This document shows, piece by piece, positions 8,394-30,415 of a stretch of DNA of 35,851 bases. Every line of letters starts with the position of its first letter. The stretch's first letter is position 1. The position numbers and the translations under genes were made by a program. Below the pieces are notes generated by a model. It had not been told where the DNA came from, did no database searches, and saw only the letters and a program-made list of their open reading frames with translations. This DNA comes from Magnetococcales bacterium (GTDB lineage Bacteria > Pseudomonadota > Alphaproteobacteria > UBA2136): NCBI GenBank assembly GCA_002689455.1, contig NZGE01000036.1, positions 1-35,851 of the forward strand, written 5' to 3'.

Positions 8394-8410
8394 TGTAAAA
8401 AATGAAAAGA

Positions 8411-8440
8411 AAAAACACCTGTCATTTGATGGGTGTTTTT
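8411..8440 (+). terminator. Intrinsic terminator of uppS
   Basis: AAAAACACC (8411-8419) pairs with GGTGTTTTT (8432-8440), followed by further T/A, beginning 17 nt after the uppS stop. Confidence 0.85.
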
Positions 8441-8531
8441 TATACTTGAAAATTCATATTTTTACACCACAATAAGGGTGCTAATACTTTAAACTTTTCT
8501 TTTACTTTCTTTTACTCTTACAGGAGGGGTT

Positions 8532-8756
8532 ATGCCTCTGTTCGATAAAGTTACACAGCTGAAATTTGATTGCGAAGCGTTGATTAAGGAAGCTTATGAA
8601 TATCCTGGTGTTGGAAAGTACCTTTCTGGTACAAGCCAAGCTACTTTGCTAAGGCGTTGTCAGAAGCTTCAAGATGCAAAAGACGCAGCGGGTTTAGATG
8701 CTCTTAAGGCGTTACTTATTAATTGCTGCTTGGATTTAAGTAAGCGAAAAAAATAA
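8532..8756 (+). CDS. Orphan 74-residue soluble protein, function unknown
   Basis: The ATG has a very strong ribosome binding site (AGGAGGGG, 3 nt upstream) and the gene is followed within 14 nt by a strong terminator, so it is almost certainly real. The product is mixed-charge, mostly helical, has four Cys (including a CC pair near the C-terminus) and ends in KKRKK-like basic residues (SKRKK). No signal peptide, membrane helix or family recognised. A possible weak promoter is TTTACA (8461-8466), 15 bp, TAATAC (8482-8487). It occupies the slot where cdsA and dxr normally sit between uppS and rseP. Confidence 0.75.
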   Translation: MPLFDKVTQLKFDCEALIKEAYEYPGVGKYLSGTSQATLLRRCQKLQDAKDAAGLDALKALLINCCLDLSKRKK

Positions 8757-8770
8757 ATCTCGAAAATTTA

Positions 8771-8797
8771 AAACCTCCAGTGCTGGAGGTTTTTTTG
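8771..8797 (+). terminator. Intrinsic terminator of the 74-residue gene
   Basis: A palindromic stem AAACCTCCAG / CTGGAGGTTT (8771-8780 with 8783-8792) followed by a run of Ts to 8796. Confidence 0.9.
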
Positions 8798-8879
8798 TAG
8801 GCTGAAAGGGTTGATCTTGCTATCTGTTTAAAAAATAAGCATATAATTGAGCGGTTGCTTATATAAAAAAAGAGTTTAC

Positions 8880-8908
8880 TTGTCATTATATTCATATGCT
8901 TTTATACT
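8880..8908 (+). promoter_or_regulatory. Promoter of the rseP-bamA-lpx operon
   Basis: TTGTCA (8880-8885), 17-bp spacer, TATACT (8903-8908), one of the best sigma-70-type matches in the window, about 33 bp before the rseP start. With the terminator at 8771-8797 it isolates the envelope operon from uppS. Confidence 0.8.
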
Positions 8909-8941
8909 GCCGTCACAAGTAATAATAAGGTAAAGTAATTT

Positions 8942-17153: not shown

Positions 17154-17273
17154 TTCCCCATTCAAATTCTCAAAAGCTATTGAATTTAATGAATTTATAA
17201 CCATCTGCCTATAAAATTGGCACGTTTTATGCTTCTTAACCTATCAAACCGATTCAAAATGGGAGAGAAGAGA

Positions 17274-17903
17274 ATGAAAACGACAGTTGCTGTAAGAGAA
17301 AAACTACAGGAAGTACAAGTAGAGCGTAAGCCTACGGTAAAGTCACTGCTAGATGAAATTTCAAAACTGCGTGAAGTTCTTGCCGACCAAGAAACGCAAA
17401 TTCAAACGCTTACAAAGCAGGCCCTTGAAGACGCATTAACAGGTTTACCAAACCGACGTGCGTTTGAAACAGAAGTTGAAAAGTCTATTTCTTACTTTAA
17501 GCGTTATAACCGAAACGGCGCACTTTTACTGATTGATATTGATGCATTTAAAGGTATTAATGATACTTTAGGCCACCTTGCAGGGGACGCTTTGCTTAAA
17601 CACCTTGCAAAGCAGCTTAAAAACCAAGTACGTGAAACCGACTTTGTTGCAAGGCTTGCAGGTGATGAGTTTTGTATTTTACTGCGTGAAGTTAGCCAAG
17701 AAGAGGCGATTCGTAAAGTTGATGAAATTGCAATGGCTGTAAGCTTGACACCATGCACATATGAGGGTAAAGACATTTACCTAAGCATTAGTGTTGGACA
17801 TTGCATGTTTGGTGGTGCTTCTGGTGAGCAGGAATTACTGGATAAAGCCGACCGTGCTATGTACGCACATAAAAATGACCTAACTTTGATTGATAACTCT
17901 TGA
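17274..17903 (+). CDS. GGDEF-domain protein (AGDEF variant), probable diguanylate cyclase
   Basis: 209 residues from the ATG at 17274, preceded by GGGAGAGAAGAG; a longer TTG-started frame from 17217 lacks a site. A short N-terminal part (1-50) is helical and probably coiled coil. A full GGDEF domain follows from DALTGLPNRRAF (53-64). The active-site motif reads AGDEF (129-133), a variant found in some working enzymes. The RxxD inhibitory c-di-GMP site is present as R120-E-T-D123, five residues ahead of it. No sensor, receiver or membrane segment exists. The second GGDEF gene follows after 56 bp and is similar along its whole length, so the two arose by duplication. Role in c-di-GMP signalling is inferred from the family. 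Confidence 0.9.
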   Translation: MKTTVAVREKLQEVQVERKPTVKSLLDEISKLREVLADQETQIQTLTKQALEDALTGLPNRRAFETEVEKSISYFKRYNRNGALLLIDIDAFKGINDTLGHLAGDALLKHLAKQLKNQVRETDFVARLAGDEFCILLREVSQEEAIRKVDEIAMAVSLTPCTYEGKDIYLSISVGHCMFGGASGEQELLDKADRAMYAHKNDLTLIDNS

Positions 17904-17928
17904 AATATATTCATAGGTTCGCTATGTT
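17900..17928 (+). promoter_or_regulatory. Candidate promoter of the second GGDEF gene
   Basis: TTGAAA (17900-17905), 17-bp spacer, TATGTT (17923-17928). It overlaps the stop codon of the first GGDEF gene and would let the second be expressed separately. Confidence 0.5.
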
Positions 17929-17959
17929 AGATTGGTATACAATATAAAGGTGTGATGAG

Positions 17960-18607
17960 ATGTTTGGAAAAAGAGGAAAAAGTTACAGAAAAGAAAGTCA
18001 GGCAAACTTGAATGACTTTAAAAACTTTGACGAAACTGATCCGTCTTTTGTTCAAATGCTTATGTCTCAGGTTATGGAACTGGAAGTTAAAATACGTGAC
18101 CAGCAAAGCCTAATTGAATCTTTAGAAAAAGATGCCATGACCGATGCCTTAACAGGTCTTTCGAACCGCCGTGTTTTTGAAGGTGAACTTAAGAAATCGC
18201 TCGCTTTTGTCAAACGTTACAAGCGTCGCAGTGCTTTAATGTTTGTAGATGTCGATGCTTTTAAAAGCATTAACGACCAGTTTGGTCATTTAGCAGGTGA
18301 CCATGCATTAAAGCTGATTGCCGATGTTTTAAAACAAAATACACGCCCAACCGATGTTGTTGCTCGATTAGGGGGTGATGAGTTTGCAGTTATTTTAAAC
18401 GAAATTGATTCTTCTTATGATGTAACAGCCCGCGCGCGTGAGCTGGAAAGCATTGTTGCCCGCACACCGCTGGTTTTTGACCATAACACCATTCATTTAA
18501 CGGCCAGCATTGGTTCTAAAACATTTGGTCAGCACGATTCTTTTGAAAGCATTATTGACGCGGCTGATCACAAAATGTATGAAAACAAAAGAAATCACAA
18601 CAGTTAA
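17960..18607 (+). CDS. GGDEF-domain diguanylate cyclase, canonical motif
   Basis: 215 residues. An N-terminal basic stretch (GKRGKSYRKES) and a predicted coiled-coil helix (about 30-58) lead into the GGDEF domain at DALTGLSNRRVF. The active motif GGDEF is at 138-142 and the inhibitory RxxD site is R129-P-T-D132, so both synthesis of c-di-GMP and product feedback look intact. The substrate-binding block FVDVDAFKSINDQFGHLAGDHAL is complete. No sensor domain is fused, so activity would depend on dimerisation through the helix or on a partner. AAGGTG lies 8 nt before the ATG. Paralogue of the gene just upstream. Confidence 0.93.
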   Translation: MFGKRGKSYRKESQANLNDFKNFDETDPSFVQMLMSQVMELEVKIRDQQSLIESLEKDAMTDALTGLSNRRVFEGELKKSLAFVKRYKRRSALMFVDVDAFKSINDQFGHLAGDHALKLIADVLKQNTRPTDVVARLGGDEFAVILNEIDSSYDVTARARELESIVARTPLVFDHNTIHLTASIGSKTFGQHDSFESIIDAADHKMYENKRNHNS

Positions 18608-19627: not shown

Positions 19628-22042
19628 TTAGCGAAGTTCTTTATATTCTTCAGGTGTGTATTCGTTCACCTGAATCACATCAAGTTTCGCTTTTTCTGCT
19701 GCTTTAATCAGCTTCAATTCATCATCTGAAATGATGCCTTCTTTTTTCGCAAGCTTAGCCATTTCAAGCACAGAACCTTTATCAAGTTTACCAGTACGGC
19801 GTGCCTCCACCAACTTATGGCGTGCATCGGCAGCAGCCAATGTTTTTTCATAAGCGGATTCAAGCGCACCAAGGCCTGGCACTTTTGCTTTTGGTACAAA
19901 GACACCATCGCTCACCATTTCACGTATTTCTGGGTTGCTGTTTAACAACTTAACAACACGGTTTGATTGTTTGTCGCTTGGTTTTTTGTAGCATGCACCG
20001 TAAGGGAAGCATAGGAACTTCAACGTTTTACCAACCAACTTGCTTGGCATGTTGTCGCACAGGTCACGCAAGGCTGTTTCTGTGTTGTGAAGGCAGTTGG
20101 TCATCACCCAGTCCAGCATTGGAAGTTCTTCCTTGTTACGTCCACGGTCATTGTAGCGTTTCAGTGTAGCAGATGCTAAGAACTGATAAGCTAAAGCGTC
20201 CGCAAAGCGACCACTTAAACTCTCACGGAATTTTAAGCTACCGCCAAGTGTAAGCAATGCCACGTCTGTCATGAAGGCAAATACAGCACTAAAATGTGTC
20301 AGTGACTTATAGTACTTCTGTTCAGGGCCAACCACAGGGGCAGGGATAAACGCACCACATGTTAAACCATAGAAAATTGTGCGCACTTTGTTACGTACAA
20401 AATGGTTAATGTGACCGAACAAGTTTTTATCGAATTTTGCAACATCACCTGCAGCAATAGCTTCAATTTCGTTTTGCACAAATGGATGGCAACGAATAGC
20501 ACCTTGACCGAAGATAATCATAGAACGTGTTAAAATGTTTGCACCTTCTACGGTGATCCCAATTGGGATAGAGTAGTAAGGGCGGGCGAAGATATTACGG
20601 TCACCACGGCAAATGGCCGCACCACCGAAGATATCCATCGCATCGTTTACACTTTTACGCATGGTTTCTGTGATATAAGCTTTCGCCACAGCGGATAGAA
20701 CCGATGGGTTTTCTCCTTCGTCAATGGCGCCACAAGTTACTTGGCGTGCTGCATCAATCATGTAAGCAGATGTTGCAATGCGTACAAGTGGTTCTTGTAC
20801 ACCTTCAAAACGCCAGATTGGTAAACCAAACTGTTCACGCACATGTGTATAAGCTGTTGTTGCACGTGCTGAAAGTTTTGTAGCTGCAACAGAAAGAGAC
20901 GGTAATGAAATACCACGTCCAGCCGCTAAACATTCCATCAGCATACGCCAGCCTTTACCAAGACCACTTTCTGCACCAATCACATATTCCATTGGAACAA
21001 ACACATCGCTACCACGCACGGTGCCGTTCGGGAATGGAATGCCCATTGGGTCGTGGCGGTTACCAATTTCAAGGCCTTCAGTGTCACGTGGTAACAAGGC
21101 ACATGTAATTCCAAGGTCCTTTTTGTCGCCTACTAAACCGTCAGGGTCGTAAAGCTTGAAAGCTAAACCAACCACAGAAGCCACAGGCGCTAATGTAATG
21201 TAACGTTTGTTAAAGTTTAGGTTAATACCCAAAACTTCTTTGCCTTTGAATTTACCTTTGGTGATAACACCTGTTGATAAACCGTTGGCAGCATCACTAC
21301 CAGCTGTTGGCTCGGTTAAAGCAAAGCAAGGGATTTCTTTACCTTCAGCAAGGCGAGGGAGGTAGTGTTTTTTCTGTTCGTCGGTACCATAGTGAGAAAG
21401 AAGTTCACCAGGGCCAAGCGAATTTGGAACCATAACAATAACCGCAGCGGCTGGGCTTCGGCTTGAAATTTTCATAATAACAGCACTTTGTGCCGCAGCT
21501 GAAAAACCAAGGCCACCATGTTCTTTGGCAATAAGCATACCGAAGAATTTGTTCTTCTTAATGAAGTCCCACGCTTTTTTAGGTAGGTCACGGTTCTTAG
21601 AGATTTCTTCATCATCAAGCATAGCGCAAAGCTCTTCAACAGGGCCATCTAAGAAAGCTTGCTCATCTTTAGAGATTTTTTTGATGTTGTTGTTGAGGAA
21701 CTTTTTCCAGTTTGGGCTACCTGAGAAAATATCACCATCGAAGCTAACAGAACCAGCTTTTAAAGCAATTTCTTCGGTTTCACCCAGTGTTGGAAGTGCA
21801 CTTTTCATCAGTTTAAGTGCCGCACTTGAAATAAGTGGGCGACGCAGTGAAGGCACGGCAAACAAGCAGGCAATTGCAGCAACAATTACCACATATGCAT
21901 TAAAAGCGGCTTGATGTTCCACACCTGAGTTGATCCATCCAGCTGCAATAATAATCGCAGCGGAAACCCAAGCAAGGAAACCTTTGCCAATGTACGCAAG
22001 GCCTAAAAAGGCAACAATGGCAAAAATAATGTAAGTTGTCAT
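19628..22042 (-). CDS. fadE: Long FadE-type acyl-CoA dehydrogenase
   Basis: 804 residues, close to the roughly 815 of E. coli FadE and about twice the length of ordinary acyl-CoA dehydrogenases. It catalyses the first oxidation of beta-oxidation, acyl-CoA to trans-2-enoyl-CoA, using FAD. Residues 1-65 contain two or three hydrophobic helices, giving membrane attachment as in FadE. The dehydrogenase core spans about 110-530: FGMLIAKEHGGLGFS, the FAD/substrate motif CFALTEPTAGSDAANG (about 230-245) and DIFGGAAICRG (about 465-475). The FadE-specific C-terminal part follows (about 540-804). A GGGAGAA site precedes the ATG. It is the last gene of the five-gene operon, 22 bp after the FadN-like gene. 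Confidence 0.94.
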   Translation of the reverse strand: MTTYIIFAIVAFLGLAYIGKGFLAWVSAAIIIAAGWINSGVEHQAAFNAYVVIVAAIACLFAVPSLRRPLISSAALKLMKSALPTLGETEEIALKAGSVSFDGDIFSGSPNWKKFLNNNIKKISKDEQAFLDGPVEELCAMLDDEEISKNRDLPKKAWDFIKKNKFFGMLIAKEHGGLGFSAAAQSAVIMKISSRSPAAAVIVMVPNSLGPGELLSHYGTDEQKKHYLPRLAEGKEIPCFALTEPTAGSDAANGLSTGVITKGKFKGKEVLGINLNFNKRYITLAPVASVVGLAFKLYDPDGLVGDKKDLGITCALLPRDTEGLEIGNRHDPMGIPFPNGTVRGSDVFVPMEYVIGAESGLGKGWRMLMECLAAGRGISLPSLSVAATKLSARATTAYTHVREQFGLPIWRFEGVQEPLVRIATSAYMIDAARQVTCGAIDEGENPSVLSAVAKAYITETMRKSVNDAMDIFGGAAICRGDRNIFARPYYSIPIGITVEGANILTRSMIIFGQGAIRCHPFVQNEIEAIAAGDVAKFDKNLFGHINHFVRNKVRTIFYGLTCGAFIPAPVVGPEQKYYKSLTHFSAVFAFMTDVALLTLGGSLKFRESLSGRFADALAYQFLASATLKRYNDRGRNKEELPMLDWVMTNCLHNTETALRDLCDNMPSKLVGKTLKFLCFPYGACYKKPSDKQSNRVVKLLNSNPEIREMVSDGVFVPKAKVPGLGALESAYEKTLAAADARHKLVEARRTGKLDKGSVLEMAKLAKKEGIISDDELKLIKAAEKAKLDVIQVNEYTPEEYKELR

Positions 22043-22064: not shown

Positions 22065-24431
22065 TTAGTTACGCAGCGGTTTGCCCTTGGTGAGCATGTG
22101 GTTAATACGCGCTTGCGTTTTCTTTGTTTTAGAAAGCCATAAAATGCCTTCTAATTCCAATTTCAACATATCTTCTTCGGTGATTTCTTCCGTAACGTCG
22201 GCGTTACCACCTGTTAAAATGTGTGAAAGTTTACCAGCAATGGTTACGTCATGCGGGGTTGCAATACCTTTAAGTGCAAAGTCATTTACACCAATTTTAA
22301 GGGCAGCCGCACCACCATGACCTGCTGGCTTGTAAACAAATGGTTCAGGCTTTTTAAAGTCCTTCGCCAGTTCCAATACTTTTTGTTTAGCACTGTAAAG
22401 CACACGGTCACGGTTCATGATGATGTCGTCGCCATCACGCAGAATGTTCATGTCTCGTGCTTCTTTTGCAGACGTTGCAACTTGTGCTGTTGCAATAGCT
22501 TCAAAGGCTTTCATTGGCCCAGCCATTGGACCTTTGTTTGTTTGGCCTTTGCGGTTTGCTTCACGACCAACCAATTCCTTACAGCCACCCCAAGCAGGTA
22601 CTAAACCAACGCCAGCTTCAACCAAGCCAACGTATGTTTCAGCATGTGCGGTGAGGGCGTTACAGTGAAGAAGCACTTCGCAACCACCACCTAAAGCCAT
22701 GCCTGAAGGTGCACCCACGATTGGTGCATCGGCATATTTCATGTTCATAAACGTTTTTTGACCCTTGCGGATAAACCAGCTTACAAATGGCCAAAGTTTA
22801 ACCTTTGTTGCCATTGTCACAAGGCCAAGGTTTGCACCCACGCAGAAGTTTTGATCCTCATTGTAAATAACCATACCCTTGTACTTGCTTTGACCTTTCA
22901 TTAGGTCAACCGCTTTGTTCATCACACTCATAATAAGTGGGTCCATCGCATTCATTTTAGAGTTAAACTCTAAACATAGAACACCGTCACCAATATCCCA
23001 TAAGTTGGCACCTAAGTTGGCGCCTACAAATGGAATGCGGAAGTTTTTCTCGTAAACAGGTTTGCTGTTGCGCTTAATATCTTCAAGCAGTAGCACACCT
23101 TCAGGGCGTACAACGTCTTCATACATACCCGCAAGGCTTAAGAATTGAAGCTTCCCGCCTTCAACCTTATAAAGCTTTTTGCCAACGGCAATTTGCAAGA
23201 ACTTTGGAACGTCGTAGCCAGTGGCTTTGAGTTTTTCAACAAAGTGCGTTACGCCAATTTTGTCGATCAGTTCAAACGGACCATATTTCCAGTTATAACC
23301 AAGGCGCATCGCACGGTCGACCAGTTCAATGTCGTCGGCAATTTCACCCACTAAGGAAGCAGCATAGCAAAGGGTGTTTGCCAACACGTCCCATGCGTAT
23401 TTACCTTCTTTAGAGTCATGATCTACCAATGCACGTAAGCCACCTTTTTTAGAAGCTTCAGCTGCATCTGGCTTTGGACGTTTTGCTTTGCTGTATGTTC
23501 CGTCTTCTAGTGAAATAACTTCTTTTACTTTTTTACCACCGTCTGTATTAAGGCGGTAAAAGCCACCTTTACCTTTACGGCCTGTGTAGCCATCATCAAT
23601 CATTTTAGAAAGAAGTTCAGGGGCGTCACCCAGTTGAATGAAAGGGTCACTTTCATGGAGTGATTTTTGGAAACTAGAGAAAATGTGTGGCATAAGGTCT
23701 AGCCCCACAAGGTCAATTAAACCAAACACACCTGTTTTAGGTACACCTGTTGGGCGACCCAGTAAAGCATCCGCTGTTTCTACATCAACGCCATGTTTAA
23801 TGGCTTTGGTAACGGCGGCATGAATCCAGAAAGTACCAATACGGTTGGCAATAAACCCTGGTGTATCATGACAGTTTACTAAGCTTTTACCCATTTTATA
23901 GTCAATAAATTGAGTCACAGATTCAAGCGTTTCCTCTGCCACATGCTTACTTTTTACAATTTCCATCAAGCGCATGTAGCGTGGTGGGTTGAAAAAGTGC
24001 GTAATGAAGAAATGTTTTTTAAATGCATCTGATGCATCTTCTGTTAGCATTTCAAGGGGCAGGGTAGATGTGTTCGATGACACAACCGCACCCTTTTTAA
24101 GATGCTTTTCAATTTTTTTGTAAAGATCCTTCTTAATATCAATGTTTTCAATGACCGCTTCAATAATCCAGTCGCAGTCTTTGATATCTTTTAAGTTATC
24201 TTCAATGTTACCCACCGTCATAAACTTGGCGTTCTTTTTATGCATAAACGCTGCTGGTTTAGACTTCTTAAGCTTTTCAAGTGCGCCTTTTGCAACCACG
24301 TTACGGTCGTCTGCACCTTTTGGTACAATATCTAAAAGAAGCACTTCTGTTTCGGCATTGGCTACTTGGGCTGCAATGCCTGCACCCATGACACCTGCGC
24401 CAATAACAGCTACTTTTTTAATTTCAGACAT
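22065..24431 (-). CDS. Bifunctional 3-hydroxyacyl-CoA dehydrogenase / enoyl-CoA hydratase, FadN type
   Basis: 788 residues from the ATG at 24431 (GGAGG 7 nt upstream; the start overlaps the thiolase stop as TAATG). The dehydrogenase half comes first: NAD Rossmann motif GAGVMG (11-16) and catalytic His145 in THFFNPP. The enoyl-CoA hydratase half follows, with FCVGANLGLV, GMALGGGCEV (about 575-585) and VEAGVGLVPAWGG carrying the two expected acidic residues. This order is the reverse of E. coli FadB/FadJ and matches FadN of Bacillus. The C-terminus ARINHMLTKGKPLRN is nearly that of FadN as I recall it. It performs hydration and the second oxidation of beta-oxidation, next to its thiolase partner. 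Confidence 0.93.
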   Translation of the reverse strand: MSEIKKVAVIGAGVMGAGIAAQVANAETEVLLLDIVPKGADDRNVVAKGALEKLKKSKPAAFMHKKNAKFMTVGNIEDNLKDIKDCDWIIEAVIENIDIKKDLYKKIEKHLKKGAVVSSNTSTLPLEMLTEDASDAFKKHFFITHFFNPPRYMRLMEIVKSKHVAEETLESVTQFIDYKMGKSLVNCHDTPGFIANRIGTFWIHAAVTKAIKHGVDVETADALLGRPTGVPKTGVFGLIDLVGLDLMPHIFSSFQKSLHESDPFIQLGDAPELLSKMIDDGYTGRKGKGGFYRLNTDGGKKVKEVISLEDGTYSKAKRPKPDAAEASKKGGLRALVDHDSKEGKYAWDVLANTLCYAASLVGEIADDIELVDRAMRLGYNWKYGPFELIDKIGVTHFVEKLKATGYDVPKFLQIAVGKKLYKVEGGKLQFLSLAGMYEDVVRPEGVLLLEDIKRNSKPVYEKNFRIPFVGANLGANLWDIGDGVLCLEFNSKMNAMDPLIMSVMNKAVDLMKGQSKYKGMVIYNEDQNFCVGANLGLVTMATKVKLWPFVSWFIRKGQKTFMNMKYADAPIVGAPSGMALGGGCEVLLHCNALTAHAETYVGLVEAGVGLVPAWGGCKELVGREANRKGQTNKGPMAGPMKAFEAIATAQVATSAKEARDMNILRDGDDIIMNRDRVLYSAKQKVLELAKDFKKPEPFVYKPAGHGGAAALKIGVNDFALKGIATPHDVTIAGKLSHILTGGNADVTEEITEEDMLKLELEGILWLSKTKKTQARINHMLTKGKPLRN

Positions 24432-25567
24432 TAGATAGCCTCCAGAACTGTTGCAATACCTTGGCCACCACCAATACATTGAGTGGCTAGGGCATATTTA
24501 CCTTTTTCACGTACAAGCAGTTGCGCTGCTTTACCTGTAATACGTGCACCTGTGGTTCCAAGTGGGTGACCCAGTGCAATGGCACCGCCATCAATGTTAA
24601 TTTTATTAATGTCTAGCCCAAGGTCGCGAATAACAGCTAAACTTTGTGAAGCAAACGCTTCGTTAAGCTCAATAACGTCAAGGTCGGCGGCTGTAATGCC
24701 TGCACGTTCAAGTGCTTTTTTGGCAGCAGGAACAGGGCCGATACCCATAATTTCAGGGTCACAACCAGCCACAGCGATTGATTTAATACGAGCCAGCGGC
24801 TTTAGCTTGTTTTCTTTTGCGAAATCTTCACTGCAAACAAGTACAGCGCAAACACCGTCTGTGAGCGGTGAAGATGTACCCGCTGTTACTGAACCGTCTT
24901 CTTTGAAGGCTGGTTTTAAACCACCTAAGCCTTCCGCTGTTGTTTCAGGGCGAATACATTCATCTTCGCTGATGGTACGGTTACCGTCTTGAATTGGGAT
25001 AATTTCATCTTTGAAGTTACCAGCTTCACGCGCCTTAGCTGCTTTTTTGTGGCTAAGCGCTGCAAACTCATCCATTTCTTCGCGTGTGAGCTTATATTTG
25101 TCTACCACGTTTTCAGCTGTTTCGCCCATGCCCATGTAAGCTTCAGGCATTTTTTCAAAAAGCCCTGGGTGTGGCATTGGGTTAAAGCCTGTCATCGGTG
25201 TACGGGACATGTTTTCCATACCTGCACAAATGAAAGCATCGCCTGCACCCATTTGGATCATACCAGCGGCATTGTGAATGGCCTGCATGGAAGAACCACA
25301 AAAACGGTTAAGCGTACAACCCGCCACAGACTTAGGCAGCCCTGCAAGGAAACACACCAAGCGTGCAATGTTAAAGCCTTGCTCACCTTCAGGGAAGGCG
25401 CAACCCATAATAAGGTCTTCAATTTTTGCAGGGTCAACTTTTGTTTTCTTCACAAGTTCTTTAATAACTTGACCGGCCATTTCATCGGCACGAACGGTTT
25501 TAAGTGAACCTTTGTGTGCTGGTGTTAATGGGCTTCTGTAATATGCTGCAATAACAACGTTTTTCAT
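24431..25567 (-). CDS. Acetyl-CoA acyltransferase (3-ketoacyl-CoA thiolase)
   Basis: 378 residues, slightly short of the common 390. Cleaves 3-ketoacyl-CoA with CoA to give acetyl-CoA, the last step of beta-oxidation. The acyl-accepting Cys90 is in LNRFCGSSMQ; the other catalytic residues are H334 in ALGHPLGTTGAR and C364 in TQCIGGGQG, and NEAFASQ is also present. FadA- or FadI-like by context rather than a biosynthetic thiolase. It is coupled at both ends: its ATG shares one base with the fadD stop codon and its stop overlaps the FadN-like start. Exact chain-length preference cannot be judged. Confidence 0.94.
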   Translation of the reverse strand: MKNVVIAAYYRSPLTPAHKGSLKTVRADEMAGQVIKELVKKTKVDPAKIEDLIMGCAFPEGEQGFNIARLVCFLAGLPKSVAGCTLNRFCGSSMQAIHNAAGMIQMGAGDAFICAGMENMSRTPMTGFNPMPHPGLFEKMPEAYMGMGETAENVVDKYKLTREEMDEFAALSHKKAAKAREAGNFKDEIIPIQDGNRTISEDECIRPETTAEGLGGLKPAFKEDGSVTAGTSSPLTDGVCAVLVCSEDFAKENKLKPLARIKSIAVAGCDPEIMGIGPVPAAKKALERAGITAADLDVIELNEAFASQSLAVIRDLGLDINKINIDGGAIALGHPLGTTGARITGKAAQLLVREKGKYALATQCIGGGQGIATVLEAI

Positions 25568-27267
25568 TATTTTTGGTTCCTTTTTTCTTTTTCTTCAGCG
25601 ATAAGCTCTTTTTTAGATAACTTACCGATGAGCGTTTTTGGTAGTTCGTCTCTAAATTCAATCTCCGCTGGTTTCTCAATTGGATTCAAGCGTGATTTAA
25701 CAAACGTTAACAATTCTTCTTTAGTTATATGGGCATCCGCTTTCAATTTTACAAATGCCTTTGGTACTTCGCCTTTGTTATCGTCTGGAATGCCAATAAC
25801 AATAACTTCTTCGACCATTTCATTTTTATAGAAGGCTTCTTCAATCATACGAGGGTAAACATTATAACCAGAAGTAATGATAATTTCTTTCAGGCGGTCG
25901 GTTAAGAAAACATATCCGTCTTCATCCATGTAACCCACATCACCTGTTTTTAACCAGTCATCAATAAGTGTTTCTTTTGTGGCTTCTTCTTTACCCCAGT
26001 AGCCTTTCATAACTTGCGGTCCACGAATGAAAACTTCACCGCGTTCGCCTGTTGGTAAAACTTTTTCGTTTTTATCAAGGTCACGAATTTCAACACATGT
26101 ACCAGGAAGTGGAATACCAATGGCGTTTGGTTTACCACCTGTGTGTGGTGGGTTACATGTTGCCACAGGTGAGCACTCAGATAGTCCATAACCTTCTACC
26201 ATTTTACAGCCTGTTAAGTTGACAAAAGTGTCTCGTACTTGTTCTGGCAATGTTGCACCACCAGAAATACAATACTTCAGTGAACTTAAGTTATAGTTCA
26301 AAATATCTTTGTGGTTGTTAATGGCATTAAAGATGGTTGGAACACCTGGGAAAATGGTTGGCTTAAGTTTATGTATTGCTTTAAGAGTGTCGTCTAAGTT
26401 AAAGCGTGGATACATAATAATGCGTGAAGCTGTGTGAATGGCTAAGTTCATGACAGCGGTCATCGCAAAGACGTGGAAGAATGGTATAACGCCTAAAAAG
26501 CGTTCGCCATTTTCGTCAACATCGCCCAGCCACAAGCGTACTTGTGCAGCATTGCTGTAAACATTTTCATGGGTAAGCATGGCACCTTTAGGTACACCTG
26601 TTGTACCACCTGTGTACTGAAGCAATGCAATATCATTTTCAGGGGATATTTCAACCTTTGTAGGTTGACCATCATTGGCAATAAGGTTGGTAAACAAAAT
26701 ATTTGTATTGTTTTCTTCAATGGTAGCCAGCTCTTTACCTTTAAACAGTTTAAATAAAATGCTTTTAACACAGGAAAGGGCACCTGGTAGTGAACAAACC
26801 ACAATTTTAGAAAGCTGTGTATGGTCAACTGACTTTTCAACTTTTTCGTAAATGGCTTCCACATCGAGCGTGAACATCAGGCGGATACCACTGTCGTTAA
26901 TTTGGTATTCCAACTCTTCTTGTGTGTAAAGTGGGTTAAAGTTTACAACTGTGCAACCTGCTTTCATGGCACCAAAATATGCCGCAATATAGTAAGGGCA
27001 GTTTGGTAGGCATAAGCCAATACGGTCACCTTTTTTCATGCCAAGGTCTTGCAAACCTTTGGCAACTTGGTTGGCCATTCTCATAATTTCGTCATAGGCG
27101 TATTCACGTCCTAAAAAGTCCGCACATATGCGGTCAGGGTGGTTTTCTGCAGCTGTTTCCAGTAAGCGGTAAACAGGTTGTGATTTTGCAGTGAATGCCC
27201 AGTTCATATTTTCTGGATATGACTTTTCCCACAGATGTGGCTTCATACTTTTTGCAGTGTGACTCAT
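25567..27267 (-). CDS. fadD: Long-chain fatty-acid--CoA ligase
   Basis: 566 residues, the usual FadD length. Activates fatty acids to acyl-CoA through an acyl-adenylate, trapping them in the cell. AMP-binding P-loop YTGGTTGVPKG is at 218-228; VEGYGLSECSPV (about 345) and TGDVGYMDEDGYVFLTDRLKEIIITSG (about 435-460) are the other adenylation motifs, and the C-terminal lysine lies in PKTLIGKLSKKEL (about 549). The motif order and length fit long-chain ligases better than acetyl-CoA synthetases. The ATG overlaps the stop codon of the preceding gene as ATGA, so the two are translationally coupled. Confidence 0.95.
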   Translation of the reverse strand: MSHTAKSMKPHLWEKSYPENMNWAFTAKSQPVYRLLETAAENHPDRICADFLGREYAYDEIMRMANQVAKGLQDLGMKKGDRIGLCLPNCPYYIAAYFGAMKAGCTVVNFNPLYTQEELEYQINDSGIRLMFTLDVEAIYEKVEKSVDHTQLSKIVVCSLPGALSCVKSILFKLFKGKELATIEENNTNILFTNLIANDGQPTKVEISPENDIALLQYTGGTTGVPKGAMLTHENVYSNAAQVRLWLGDVDENGERFLGVIPFFHVFAMTAVMNLAIHTASRIIMYPRFNLDDTLKAIHKLKPTIFPGVPTIFNAINNHKDILNYNLSSLKYCISGGATLPEQVRDTFVNLTGCKMVEGYGLSECSPVATCNPPHTGGKPNAIGIPLPGTCVEIRDLDKNEKVLPTGERGEVFIRGPQVMKGYWGKEEATKETLIDDWLKTGDVGYMDEDGYVFLTDRLKEIIITSGYNVYPRMIEEAFYKNEMVEEVIVIGIPDDNKGEVPKAFVKLKADAHITKEELLTFVKSRLNPIEKPAEIEFRDELPKTLIGKLSKKELIAEEKEKRNQK

Positions 27268-29594
27268 GATGCATCCTTATTTTTTGTTGCTTTTTTGGCA
27301 TCTTTTACGAATTGTATCAAAAGTTTATGGGTTTCGCCAATATTGTCATAAATAATGCCGTGTCTTGCCGTATCTATCATATGTACGACTTTTTCTTTAA
27401 TGTTCAGTGCTTTAAATAAAACTTTAGCGGCTTTAGGGTTTACCACAGGGTCTTCTGTTGCTTGAATAATCGTAACAGGGCATGTGATGTATTGCAGGCG
27501 CTTTTTAACGCTTTGCACAAGGTAACGCAGTTCATTTAAGGCCGAAACAGGCATGGTTGCGTAGTTGGTTTTTGGGTAAGCCGACTTGTTTGGTTTAAAT
27601 GGAACCAAACTTTCAAGTTTTGGTATCACACTAAACAACTTATTAATGAAGTGAAGCAGGGGCACAAGGTGCATCATCTTATCTTTTAAAATAAGAGGGG
27701 TGCAAACACTGGCAACACCTGCAAGTTGTTTAGGGTTGGTAGATGCATGCCTTAAAGCAAGTGCACCACCACCACTAAAGCCAATGATATAAATTTCATC
27801 GCAAAATGCGCTTAAAATTTTGTAGTTACGACGCACAGAGCCTAACCACTGTTCATGTGTTCTGCTATCTAAGTCCCAAGGGCTGGTGCCGTGACCGCTA
27901 ACACGCATACCTAAAACAGCGTGGCCTTCTTTATGAAGTTTTATGCCCAGTTCAGAAAGTTCACCAGGTGATGATAAGAACCCATGGATAAGAAGCACAC
28001 CTTTTTTGGCCTTTTTCTTTTGAGGCAGAAGGTAAGGGTCGGTGCTTTCGGTTATGGTTTCTTGTTTGTTAATTTCTTCGTGGCGCTTTTTGCTGTAAAG
28101 CTCTTTGTTGTAGGCTGTTGCACGAATTTCATCGTCAAACATTAGCAAAGCTAGTTCGCGTTCGTCATATTTATCAATCTTTTTAATGGTTTCTAAAATT
28201 GTTTTTTTAACTTGAGTGACAGGCGCAATTTCGTTTACACGCATCTTAATTGGGTTTTCCATGCGCACAAGGTTCGAGTCCCCATCGGTGAGTACTTTAT
28301 CTTGGAAATAATAATTTTTCGCATCTTCTTTAATGAGGCCAGCTAGCTTATTGGTGCGAATGTTTCGCTTTAATAAAAGGCTTTTACCACGGTATAAGTT
28401 TTTATAGTCACGTGGCCTAAAGAAACTGCTATGCAAGTGAACTTTAGGGTCTTCTTGAAGTTTTTTGAAGGAGATGTATATCATTTTATGAAAAACATCC
28501 TTTGGAAGGCTGAAAACCTCCTGTTTCATAAGTTCTGTTATGGTTGTGGCTGTAATGTGGGCCAAGTTTACGGTAACACCGTCGTAAAGGTGCTCCATAT
28601 ATTGGTCACGAATTTTGTCGGTTTCTTTTGAAATAAACTGCGCAAGAAGTTGTTCCGACCATGTGTCCGCTTGGTGTCTTAAACTGAACAGTTCATCAAG
28701 GGAGTTTACACCCAAGAAATACTTTTTAAGAAGCATACGTTCCCACCAGTGCCAAGTTTTATGAATTTCAATGGGTTCAGCAAATCGAATGTCCATGTCG
28801 GTGTCTTTTAAAAGGATATTCCCTTCAATGACAATTTCTTCCAACGCCGATTGAGGGAGCTTTTTAACAAAGAACTCAGCTAATTTGGTTGCAATGTTAT
28901 CGCTGACACGAATTGGGTAAAACGTAATGGTGCCTGGCACAATGTTTGTGGGCTTGTTGGCTTGTTTTAAAAGCTCTTCAACCGATTCAAGCTCGAGTGA
29001 TTGACGCCATCTTTCAAGCCTTTCCATGTCACCGTCTTCGTGAAGGTCCTTAATACGGCGTTTGAACAGGTCAAGCGTGAGCGCTAAAATGGCAGCGCCT
29101 CGGTGGTGTTTACGAAAAGCCATGGCTGTTTTAGAGAAAACACCATACTTACCGCTATCGTCCATAACACGGCGGTCCTTAATCATGCCACCTTCTGGGA
29201 AAATAACAACTTTACGTCCACGTAAAATTTCGGAAGCCAAGAACGGTAATAAACCAGGCAAGTCATTAGGTACAGCACCGCCACCGCGCATAAACTTAGA
29301 GAGCTTCTCGCTGGCGTCGAACAATTCAGCGTGGGCAATGGTTCTGGTGTAATAGCCACCTTGTTTATAAAAAATGTAAGGCGGAATGCCTGTTTCAAAG
29401 CGGGCAAAATGGTTGAAGAGGAATATTTGACCATCTTCAAGCGTGTTGTCATCTAAATGAACATGAACTTTAAGGCCGAAATTGTCTTGCACACGGTCAA
29501 AGTTTTTCACACACCAGTCGTAGGTTTCTTTACTGCATGCGTAATATTCGTTTAGGTTTGTTGGGTCTATGTCTTTTTTTTCTTCGTCGCTCAT
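27264..29594 (-). CDS. Acyltransferase (PlsC superfamily) fused to an alpha/beta hydrolase
   Basis: 776 residues from the ATG at 29594; a longer form starts at 29651 but that ATG lies only about 11 nt after the predicted transcript start, and neither has a good ribosome binding site. Residues about 50-330 are an LPLAT/PlsC-like acyltransferase: NHFARFE (motif I as HX4E, H62/E67, instead of HX4D) and FPEGG (132-136). A helical linker of unknown fold spans about 340-520. The C-terminal part is an alpha/beta hydrolase like monoacylglycerol lipases: oxyanion motif LLIHGF (about 535), nucleophile GFSGGG (about 605), acid in ATEDPVV (about 715), His in TARHGIIYD (about 744). One chain may thus both make and cleave glycerolipid esters. 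It heads the beta-oxidation operon, suggesting it frees or diverts acyl chains for FadD. Substrates unknown. Confidence 0.85.
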   Translation of the reverse strand: MSDEEKKDIDPTNLNEYYACSKETYDWCVKNFDRVQDNFGLKVHVHLDDNTLEDGQIFLFNHFARFETGIPPYIFYKQGGYYTRTIAHAELFDASEKLSKFMRGGGAVPNDLPGLLPFLASEILRGRKVVIFPEGGMIKDRRVMDDSGKYGVFSKTAMAFRKHHRGAAILALTLDLFKRRIKDLHEDGDMERLERWRQSLELESVEELLKQANKPTNIVPGTITFYPIRVSDNIATKLAEFFVKKLPQSALEEIVIEGNILLKDTDMDIRFAEPIEIHKTWHWWERMLLKKYFLGVNSLDELFSLRHQADTWSEQLLAQFISKETDKIRDQYMEHLYDGVTVNLAHITATTITELMKQEVFSLPKDVFHKMIYISFKKLQEDPKVHLHSSFFRPRDYKNLYRGKSLLLKRNIRTNKLAGLIKEDAKNYYFQDKVLTDGDSNLVRMENPIKMRVNEIAPVTQVKKTILETIKKIDKYDERELALLMFDDEIRATAYNKELYSKKRHEEINKQETITESTDPYLLPQKKKAKKGVLLIHGFLSSPGELSELGIKLHKEGHAVLGMRVSGHGTSPWDLDSRTHEQWLGSVRRNYKILSAFCDEIYIIGFSGGGALALRHASTNPKQLAGVASVCTPLILKDKMMHLVPLLHFINKLFSVIPKLESLVPFKPNKSAYPKTNYATMPVSALNELRYLVQSVKKRLQYITCPVTIIQATEDPVVNPKAAKVLFKALNIKEKVVHMIDTARHGIIYDNIGETHKLLIQFVKDAKKATKNKDAS

Positions 29595-29668
29595 TTTCAA
29601 CCGTTCGTTAAGGGTCTTTTTATTTTTCTTATTCCTTATAGGAAGGTGCATTAAATGCTTTTGTGACT

Positions 29669-29761: not shown

Positions 29762-30415
29762 TTAGTTAACGTACTGATTCAGCCACGCTTTAACTTTACC
29801 CCAGAAAGAGGTTGTGTAGCCTTGCGCATGAACGTTTTTAAACGCACGGTCAATGGTTTCAAGTTGGTATTTAAAGCGTGAACCTTGATCACCGTTTAAA
29901 TAGTCAGCGACAAATTCTTCATAGCTGACAGTTTTAATGCCGACAATTTTCCCACCAACTTCAATGTTGTTGAACTGTTCTTTGGAAAGAACGATGTAAC
30001 GTTCAAATGCAACACGTTTAATGGGGAAGGCACCGTATGGTGTATTCAGTGGTTCTGCCATGGCTTCAGCTGGATATTCACAAATACTGAAAGAGCTTAC
30101 TTTCACACACCCGCTTACATTAATATTCAGCATGTTTTTGGCGTGCACATCTGCAAGCTCAGCAAATGAACATGGGCCTGAAACAAGACCGCCGTTAAAC
30201 CCACCAATCAGGCATGTTGGACCATTTTCGGGAATAGCATTTGGTACATCGCCTTGCGGTAAAATGCCTAAAATGAGCTGACCATCTTCAGTGAACGGAA
30301 TGTTGGTGGCACTAAAAGCCAACCACGTTTGTACCATTTGGGTGCGTAACTCGGCAGGTGCGGTTTTTAAGGTTTCAGTAATAGCTTCATTTGATAAAGC
30401 ATTTTGATCACACAT
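29762..30415 (-). CDS. Unrecognised 217-residue soluble protein
   Basis: No signal peptide or membrane helix. The centre (about 60-150) is rich in short beta-like stretches with glycine and cysteine: GPTCLIGGFNGGLVSGPCSF, then NINVSGCVKVSSFSICEYP. The last 40 residues are amphipathic helix and aromatic (FWGKVKAWLNQYVN). Five Cys in all, with no metal-binding CxxC. It vaguely recalls split-barrel flavin-binding proteins but I cannot support that assignment. GGAGAA lies 7 nt before the ATG. It has its own promoter and terminator, between the ppiD unit and the fatty-acid operon. Composition is that of a true protein; function unknown. Confidence 0.75.
   Translation of the reverse strand: MCDQNALSNEAITETLKTAPAELRTQMVQTWLAFSATNIPFTEDGQLILGILPQGDVPNAIPENGPTCLIGGFNGGLVSGPCSFAELADVHAKNMLNINVSGCVKVSSFSICEYPAEAMAEPLNTPYGAFPIKRVAFERYIVLSKEQFNNIEVGGKIVGIKTVSYEEFVADYLNGDQGSRFKYQLETIDRAFKNVHAQGYTTSFWGKVKAWLNQYVN

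Follow-up and report, generated by a model that had tools for sequence, protein, structure and literature searches.

Several described systems contain the parts of the protein that is discussed here. Aas is an acyl-ACP (acyl carrier protein) synthetase and lysophospholipid acyltransferase (PMC13170283), and PES1 and PES2 of plants, which belong to the esterase/lipase/thioesterase family, are lipase-named proteins with an acyltransferase domain that make fatty acid esters (PMC12048435). The protein in question is encoded on contig NZGE01000036.1 of a Magnetococcales bacterium (assembly GCA_002689455.1; GTDB lineage Alphaproteobacteria, UBA2136), of which the whole stretch of 35,851 nucleotides that was analyzed is called the window. 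It combines a PlsC-type acyltransferase and an alpha/beta hydrolase in one chain, and its gene stands at the head of a β-oxidation operon. Each part is of a known kind, and their combination appears to be undescribed; no description of the fusion, or of a trimodular form to which FadD is attached as well, was found in the open-access literature, and none of the curated NCBIfam models reaches its cut-off for the fusion protein. With slightly more belief than doubt, we take it for an enzyme of acyl-chain salvage and remodeling, which runs a deacylation-reacylation cycle on acquired lipids with FadD as the activator. The features on which this explanation is built are the following.

27264 to 29594, minus strand: fusion protein of 776 residues (795 from the ATG at 29651); open frame and full-length homologs.
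28044 to 29594, minus strand: GPAT (glycerol-3-phosphate acyltransferase)-like unit, residues 1–517, including the helical region; predicted from the model, the PDB fold match and invariant residues.
29136 to 29471, minus strand: PlsC-type acyltransferase core, residues 42–153, with the HX4E motif NHFARFE at 61–67 and PEGG at 133–136; PF01553 and residue conservation.
27345 to 28013, minus strand: monoacylglycerol-lipase-like alpha/beta hydrolase, residues 528–750, with Ser607, Asp715 and His745; PF12146 and nearest structures.
27264 to 27267, minus strand: ATGA stop/start overlap of the fusion gene and fadD; sequence.
25567 to 27267, minus strand: fadD, long-chain acyl-CoA (coenzyme A) ligase; PF00501 (E 1e-97) and PF13193.
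24431 to 25567, minus strand: fadA, 3-ketoacyl-CoA thiolase; Thiolase_N/C, and TIGR01930 above its cut-off.
22065 to 24479, minus strand: fadB, 3-hydroxyacyl-CoA dehydrogenase/enoyl-CoA hydratase; 3HCDH and ECH.
19628 to 22042, minus strand: fadE, acyl-CoA dehydrogenase; ACDH_C (E 3e-93), and NF007000 above its cut-off.

Residues are numbered throughout in the 776-residue form, which starts at the ATG at 29594 and runs to 27264 as a single frame that is not interrupted by a stop. The in-frame ATG further upstream would add 19 residues; the corresponding frame in the congener has 772. The original prediction, made from the sequence of the window, had placed both an acyltransferase and a hydrolase in this frame, and all of its motifs are indeed located there; besides the two acyltransferase motifs listed above, these are LLIHGF at residues 534–539, GFSGGG at 605–610, ATEDP at 712–716 and ARHG at 743–746. 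Its coupling of the gene to fadD and to β-oxidation was equally borne out by the ATGA overlap and by fadD, fadA, fadB and fadE, which follow downstream, closely packed on the same strand.

A misjoined frame and an already characterized family had both been named as grounds on which this prediction might fail. Full-length homologs without internal stops are carried by 17 of the 18 genomes of the order, and the same architecture recurs in 80 further loci that were fetched from other assemblies, which rules out an assembly artifact or a chance fusion. Full-length matches were also found in 12 of 289 genomes of the class and in 3 of 299 of the phylum, one of the latter with an in-frame TGA; the other matches at these two levels comprise the hydrolase only, and on plasmids just partial matches, over the hydrolase side, were seen. 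In the GTDB contig collection, at least 570 stretches were confirmed by a scan; the 80 loci kept from these are alpha-, beta- and gammaproteobacterial records with a few labeled otherwise. Judged from these matches, the fusion is common but patchy in its distribution and belongs to a widespread family, yet one for which the literature holds, as said above, no description. Two of the contigs are labeled Klebsiella pneumoniae; their fusion proteins group with those of environmental Gammaproteobacteria, and the labels are probably wrong.

The association with FadD extends beyond the window. In 36 of 97 loci, the gene is followed immediately, and in the same orientation, by one for a FadD homolog; downstream genes for FadA recur in 33 loci, for FadB in 32 and for FadE in 26. 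Most alphaproteobacterial loci have kept the fad neighborhood. In eight loci, FadD is even fused in frame to the protein, which then measures 1313–1398 residues. Four of these trimodular proteins were scanned with Pfam and contain Hydrolase_4, AMP-binding and AMP-binding_C, in that order; PF01553 reaches E 0.001 in one of the four, and the acyltransferase motifs are found in all by alignment. Four changes on the tree are needed to account for the FadD-fused proteins, and a single clade of them is rejected (p-AU 9e-34). Since they are thus scattered, the fusion to FadD, or its loss, occurred repeatedly and does not go back to one inherited copy. More than any other finding, this repeated fusion argues for an enzyme that works together with FadD, and it strengthens the coupling that was proposed from the window.

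The hydrolase half matches Hydrolase_4 (PF12146) at residues 528–750 with E 7e-22, and its nearest relatives, by sequence as well as by fold, are the lipase LipS and bacterial (Bacillus) monoacylglycerol lipases. The window protein possesses what defines a serine hydrolase, i.e., the alpha/beta hydrolase fold, the serine in GxSxG (S607), the aspartate (D715) and the histidine (H745). This closeness to monoacylglycerol lipases, together with the fad operon, would also fit a neutral-lipid enzyme, in which a monoacylglycerol acyltransferase and a monoacylglycerol lipase are joined and β-oxidation is fed from stored fat. However, neither WS/DGAT nor any other gene for storage lipids turned up among the window proteins and the neighbors examined, and the acyltransferase lies outside the DGAT families. 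A neutral-lipid enzyme is, therefore, very unlikely.

Conservation was assessed in an alignment of 98 sequences, a few of them near-duplicates. Asn61, His62, Arg65, Glu67, Pro133, Glu134, Gly135, Asp715 and His745 are invariant in all of them, and so are Arg329, Tyr337, His346, Arg444, Asn454 and Glu455 elsewhere in the GPAT-like unit. Residue 607 is Ser in 89 sequences, Ala in seven and Gly in two. The nine relatives without the serine, Kiloniella and relatives (seven) and Novispirillum (two), represent two changes on the tree; they have kept the acyltransferase, and the seven of the Kiloniella clade still precede fad genes. Hence, with Ser607 lost in nine sequences and the acyltransferase residues invariant, the acyltransferase is the more constant half. 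A half that is catalytically dead in most members, another possibility that had been raised at the outset, is ruled out by this pattern. Two distinct lineages have replaced Ser607 while conserving the remainder of the protein, which might suggest that the hydrolase domain serves the acyltransferase chiefly as a platform that binds acyl chains or membranes and has no catalytic role; ABHD5/CGI-58 is an example of a pseudo-hydrolase. A platform would require none of the three catalytic residues, however, whereas the serine is present in the great majority of the sequences and the aspartate and histidine in all, and this explanation is the least probable of those considered here.

The acyltransferase half belongs to the PlsC/LPLAT superfamily, with the Pfam domain Acyltransferase (PF01553) matching residues 42–153 above the gathering score (E 1.3e-5) and NHF[A/T]R.E and PEG conserved across the alignment. 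Structures were predicted with AlphaFold2, using 65 homologs, for residues 1–517 and for the whole protein. The former model has a pLDDT (predicted local distance difference test) of 93.7 and a pTM (predicted template modeling score) of 0.91, the latter 93.8 and 0.91; the high pTM of the whole protein points to a rigid placement of one part relative to the other, without establishing it. For residues 1–517, human GPAT1 (8e4y; E 6.9e-7, probability 1.00) is the sole PDB match with an E-value under 0.001; weaker fold matches to Thermotoga PlsC and mycobacterial PatA follow. Because the confident model matches human GPAT1, the helical region has the appearance of a GPAT C-terminal domain and not of a linker, and the predicted fold has the PlsC core plus helical C-terminal domain that marks the PlsB/GPAT1 type. 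The original prediction had seen here a linker of ~180 unassigned helical residues; this part of it fell, as ~375 residues separate the two Pfam domains and belong, in the model, to the GPAT-like fold. The confidence of the model also rules out an unstructured linker. Short PlsB-like GPATs were encountered as well, i.e., five alphaproteobacterial proteins of ~470–520 residues (L130–L134) with weak but above-cut-off GPAT_C matches, each adjoining a conserved gene that resembles crotonyl-CoA reductase.

The lipid metabolism of the order gives the fusion its context. The 18 genomes include two of the genus, that of the window (86% complete) and its congener (97%). PlsY was found in none of the 18 and PlsX in one, and GPAT_C, as in PlsB, in neither genome of the genus. 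In these two genomes, the fusion is the sole match to PF01553, and no stand-alone PlsC was detected. In six further members of the order, a second strong match occurs, and the four that were read are Aas-type proteins, so that Aas, which re-acylates lysolipids, is present in several members of the order; two weak matches are DUF374 proteins. CdsA (PF01148) was detected in five of the 18 and not in the genus. Since FabF was found in the genus, and is common across the order, these non-detections do not reflect a general failure of the search. Glycerophospholipid synthesis in the order thus seems either to begin by a different route or to be lacking. The window itself contains the cluster rpsB-tsf-pyrH-frr-uppS-rseP-bamA-lpx, in which frr and uppS were probably named correctly from a reading of their sequences and their position, and it encodes LpxD, LpxI and LpxB. 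Usually, cdsA and dxr sit between uppS and rseP; here, both are missing.

8394 to 8941, plus strand: interval between uppS and rseP without cdsA or dxr, its only open reading frame (ORF) one of 74 residues at 8532 to 8756; sequence, and no CdsA family in the genus.

In the congener, the same gap is occupied by different ORFs.

These data bear on the possibility that the fusion is a true GPAT, which makes lysophosphatidic acid and phosphatidic acid (PA) de novo in place of PlsB or PlsX/PlsY, with the hydrolase as an editing or thioesterase-like proofreading domain. Human GPAT1 is the best structural match, with the helical part included, and those genomes of the order that possess CdsA need a source of PA, with PlsY undetected throughout and PlsX nearly so. 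In the window's genus, however, newly made PA would be barred from the usual phospholipid route, as CdsA was not found. Moreover, free-living bacteria, in which the standard enzymes would be expected, have members of the family as well, and its motif reads HX4E, where PlsB and GPAT1 have HX4D. On balance, a de novo GPAT is unlikely.

In the salvage and remodeling that we favor, the fusion protein would be a cytoplasmic or peripheral-membrane enzyme that recycles acyl chains; its best 19-residue Kyte-Doolittle mean is 1.27, and no hydrophobic stretch is strong or long enough for a membrane span. By analogy with its nearest relatives, the C-terminal hydrolase would take an acyl chain off a lysophospholipid or a monoacylglycerol. 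FadD, from the next gene or, in some relatives, covalently attached, would convert the free fatty acid into acyl-CoA, as expected for its family. The acyl-CoA could then either be oxidized by FadE, FadB and FadA or return to the N-terminal, GPAT1-like acyltransferase, which may re-esterify a lysolipid or glycerol 3-phosphate. Overall, this would constitute a Lands-type deacylation-reacylation cycle with an oxidation outlet. A lysolipid is favored as the acceptor over glycerol 3-phosphate since, with no CdsA detected in the genus, new PA would lack its usual outlet there; this is an argument, not a demonstration. In this genus, the enzyme's most likely task is to edit lipids obtained from another organism, and the salvage of membrane lipids fits better than the mobilization of storage lipids because none of the enzymes searched for in PA and CDP-diacylglycerol synthesis was found. 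Thus, of the lipid-remodeling or storage-mobilizing enzyme that was first proposed, feeding FadD and re-esterifying its products, the two opposed (predicted) activities in one chain and the remodeling role stand, whilst the linker does not.

Several observations weigh against this explanation. The fold alignment with GPAT1 spans 564 columns with a TMq of 0.46 and an identity of 12%, and the fusion family has no match to PF19277 (GPAT_C). Neither Pfam, nor a PDB sequence search, nor hhalign, in which E. coli PlsB, 24 PlsB-type proteins and five short alphaproteobacterial GPATs served as partners, related the helical part significantly to GPAT_C; one weak hhalign alignment sets residues 326–459 against the last part of the GPAT_C region, and the YAN motif lines up in it. 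Since the sequence methods gave nothing significant, it is the fold comparison that carries the likeness. Furthermore, hydrolysis is dispensable somewhere, as the nine relatives without the catalytic serine have kept the gene. The pathway genes appear to be absent, as far as two draft genomes can tell. Finally, most gammaproteobacterial loci have no fad genes nearby, and no recurrent neighbor that would explain the function was found among these members.

A bolder and doubtful extension would be that removal, activation and re-attachment of acyl chains form a single-chain cycle, which the trimodular relatives contain in full and which replaces the lost phospholipid acyltransferases in the reduced genus, so that the membrane is made from the lipids of others. 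In any case, a large uncharacterized protein family gains a biochemical hypothesis that can be tested, and an alphaproteobacterial order is marked for which the usual entry into phospholipid synthesis, by PlsX and PlsY, went undetected. If true, the proposal would show how such bacteria maintain their membranes, and in the trimodular relatives a single polypeptide would cleave off, activate and re-esterify fatty acids.

Some features of the surroundings may be added. FadB of the window has its dehydrogenase part first and a partial enoyl-CoA hydratase match toward the C-terminus and differs in this from E. coli FadB. Directly upstream of the fusion gene, 29762–30415 encodes a protein of 217 residues that belongs to no confident family and, among the fetched loci, has a homolog only within the genus. 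At 17217–18607 lie two related neighboring genes; the first encodes a GGDEF diguanylate cyclase, to which the second gives a cross-match at ~45% identity in the congener. GGDEF-type proteins also recur beside the fusion in seven loci without fad genes.

Compared with known systems, the fusion shares with human GPAT1 and PlsB-type GPATs the order of a PlsC-type core and a helical C-terminal domain, as indicated by the fold match, but has HX4E instead of HX4D, no GPAT_C match in Pfam, and a hydrolase attached. The latter has the fold and triad of the monoacylglycerol lipase of Bacillus sp. H257 and of LipS (Hydrolase_4), at 22–25% identity; those enzymes are free-standing, whereas here the hydrolase is joined to an acyltransferase. 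PES1 and PES2 resemble the fusion by family description, but their acyltransferase is of the MFAT/DGAT2-related type, and their domain order is presumably reversed. By analogy, Aas would be the closest functional parallel. In Aas, an acyltransferase and a fatty-acid-activating enzyme cooperate on lysophospholipids, and the two are in one chain in the trimodular relatives too. In the fusion family, however, a hydrolase separates the two and the ligase resembles FadD and uses CoA, while in the window acyltransferase and ligase are not in one chain, fadD being a separate gene.

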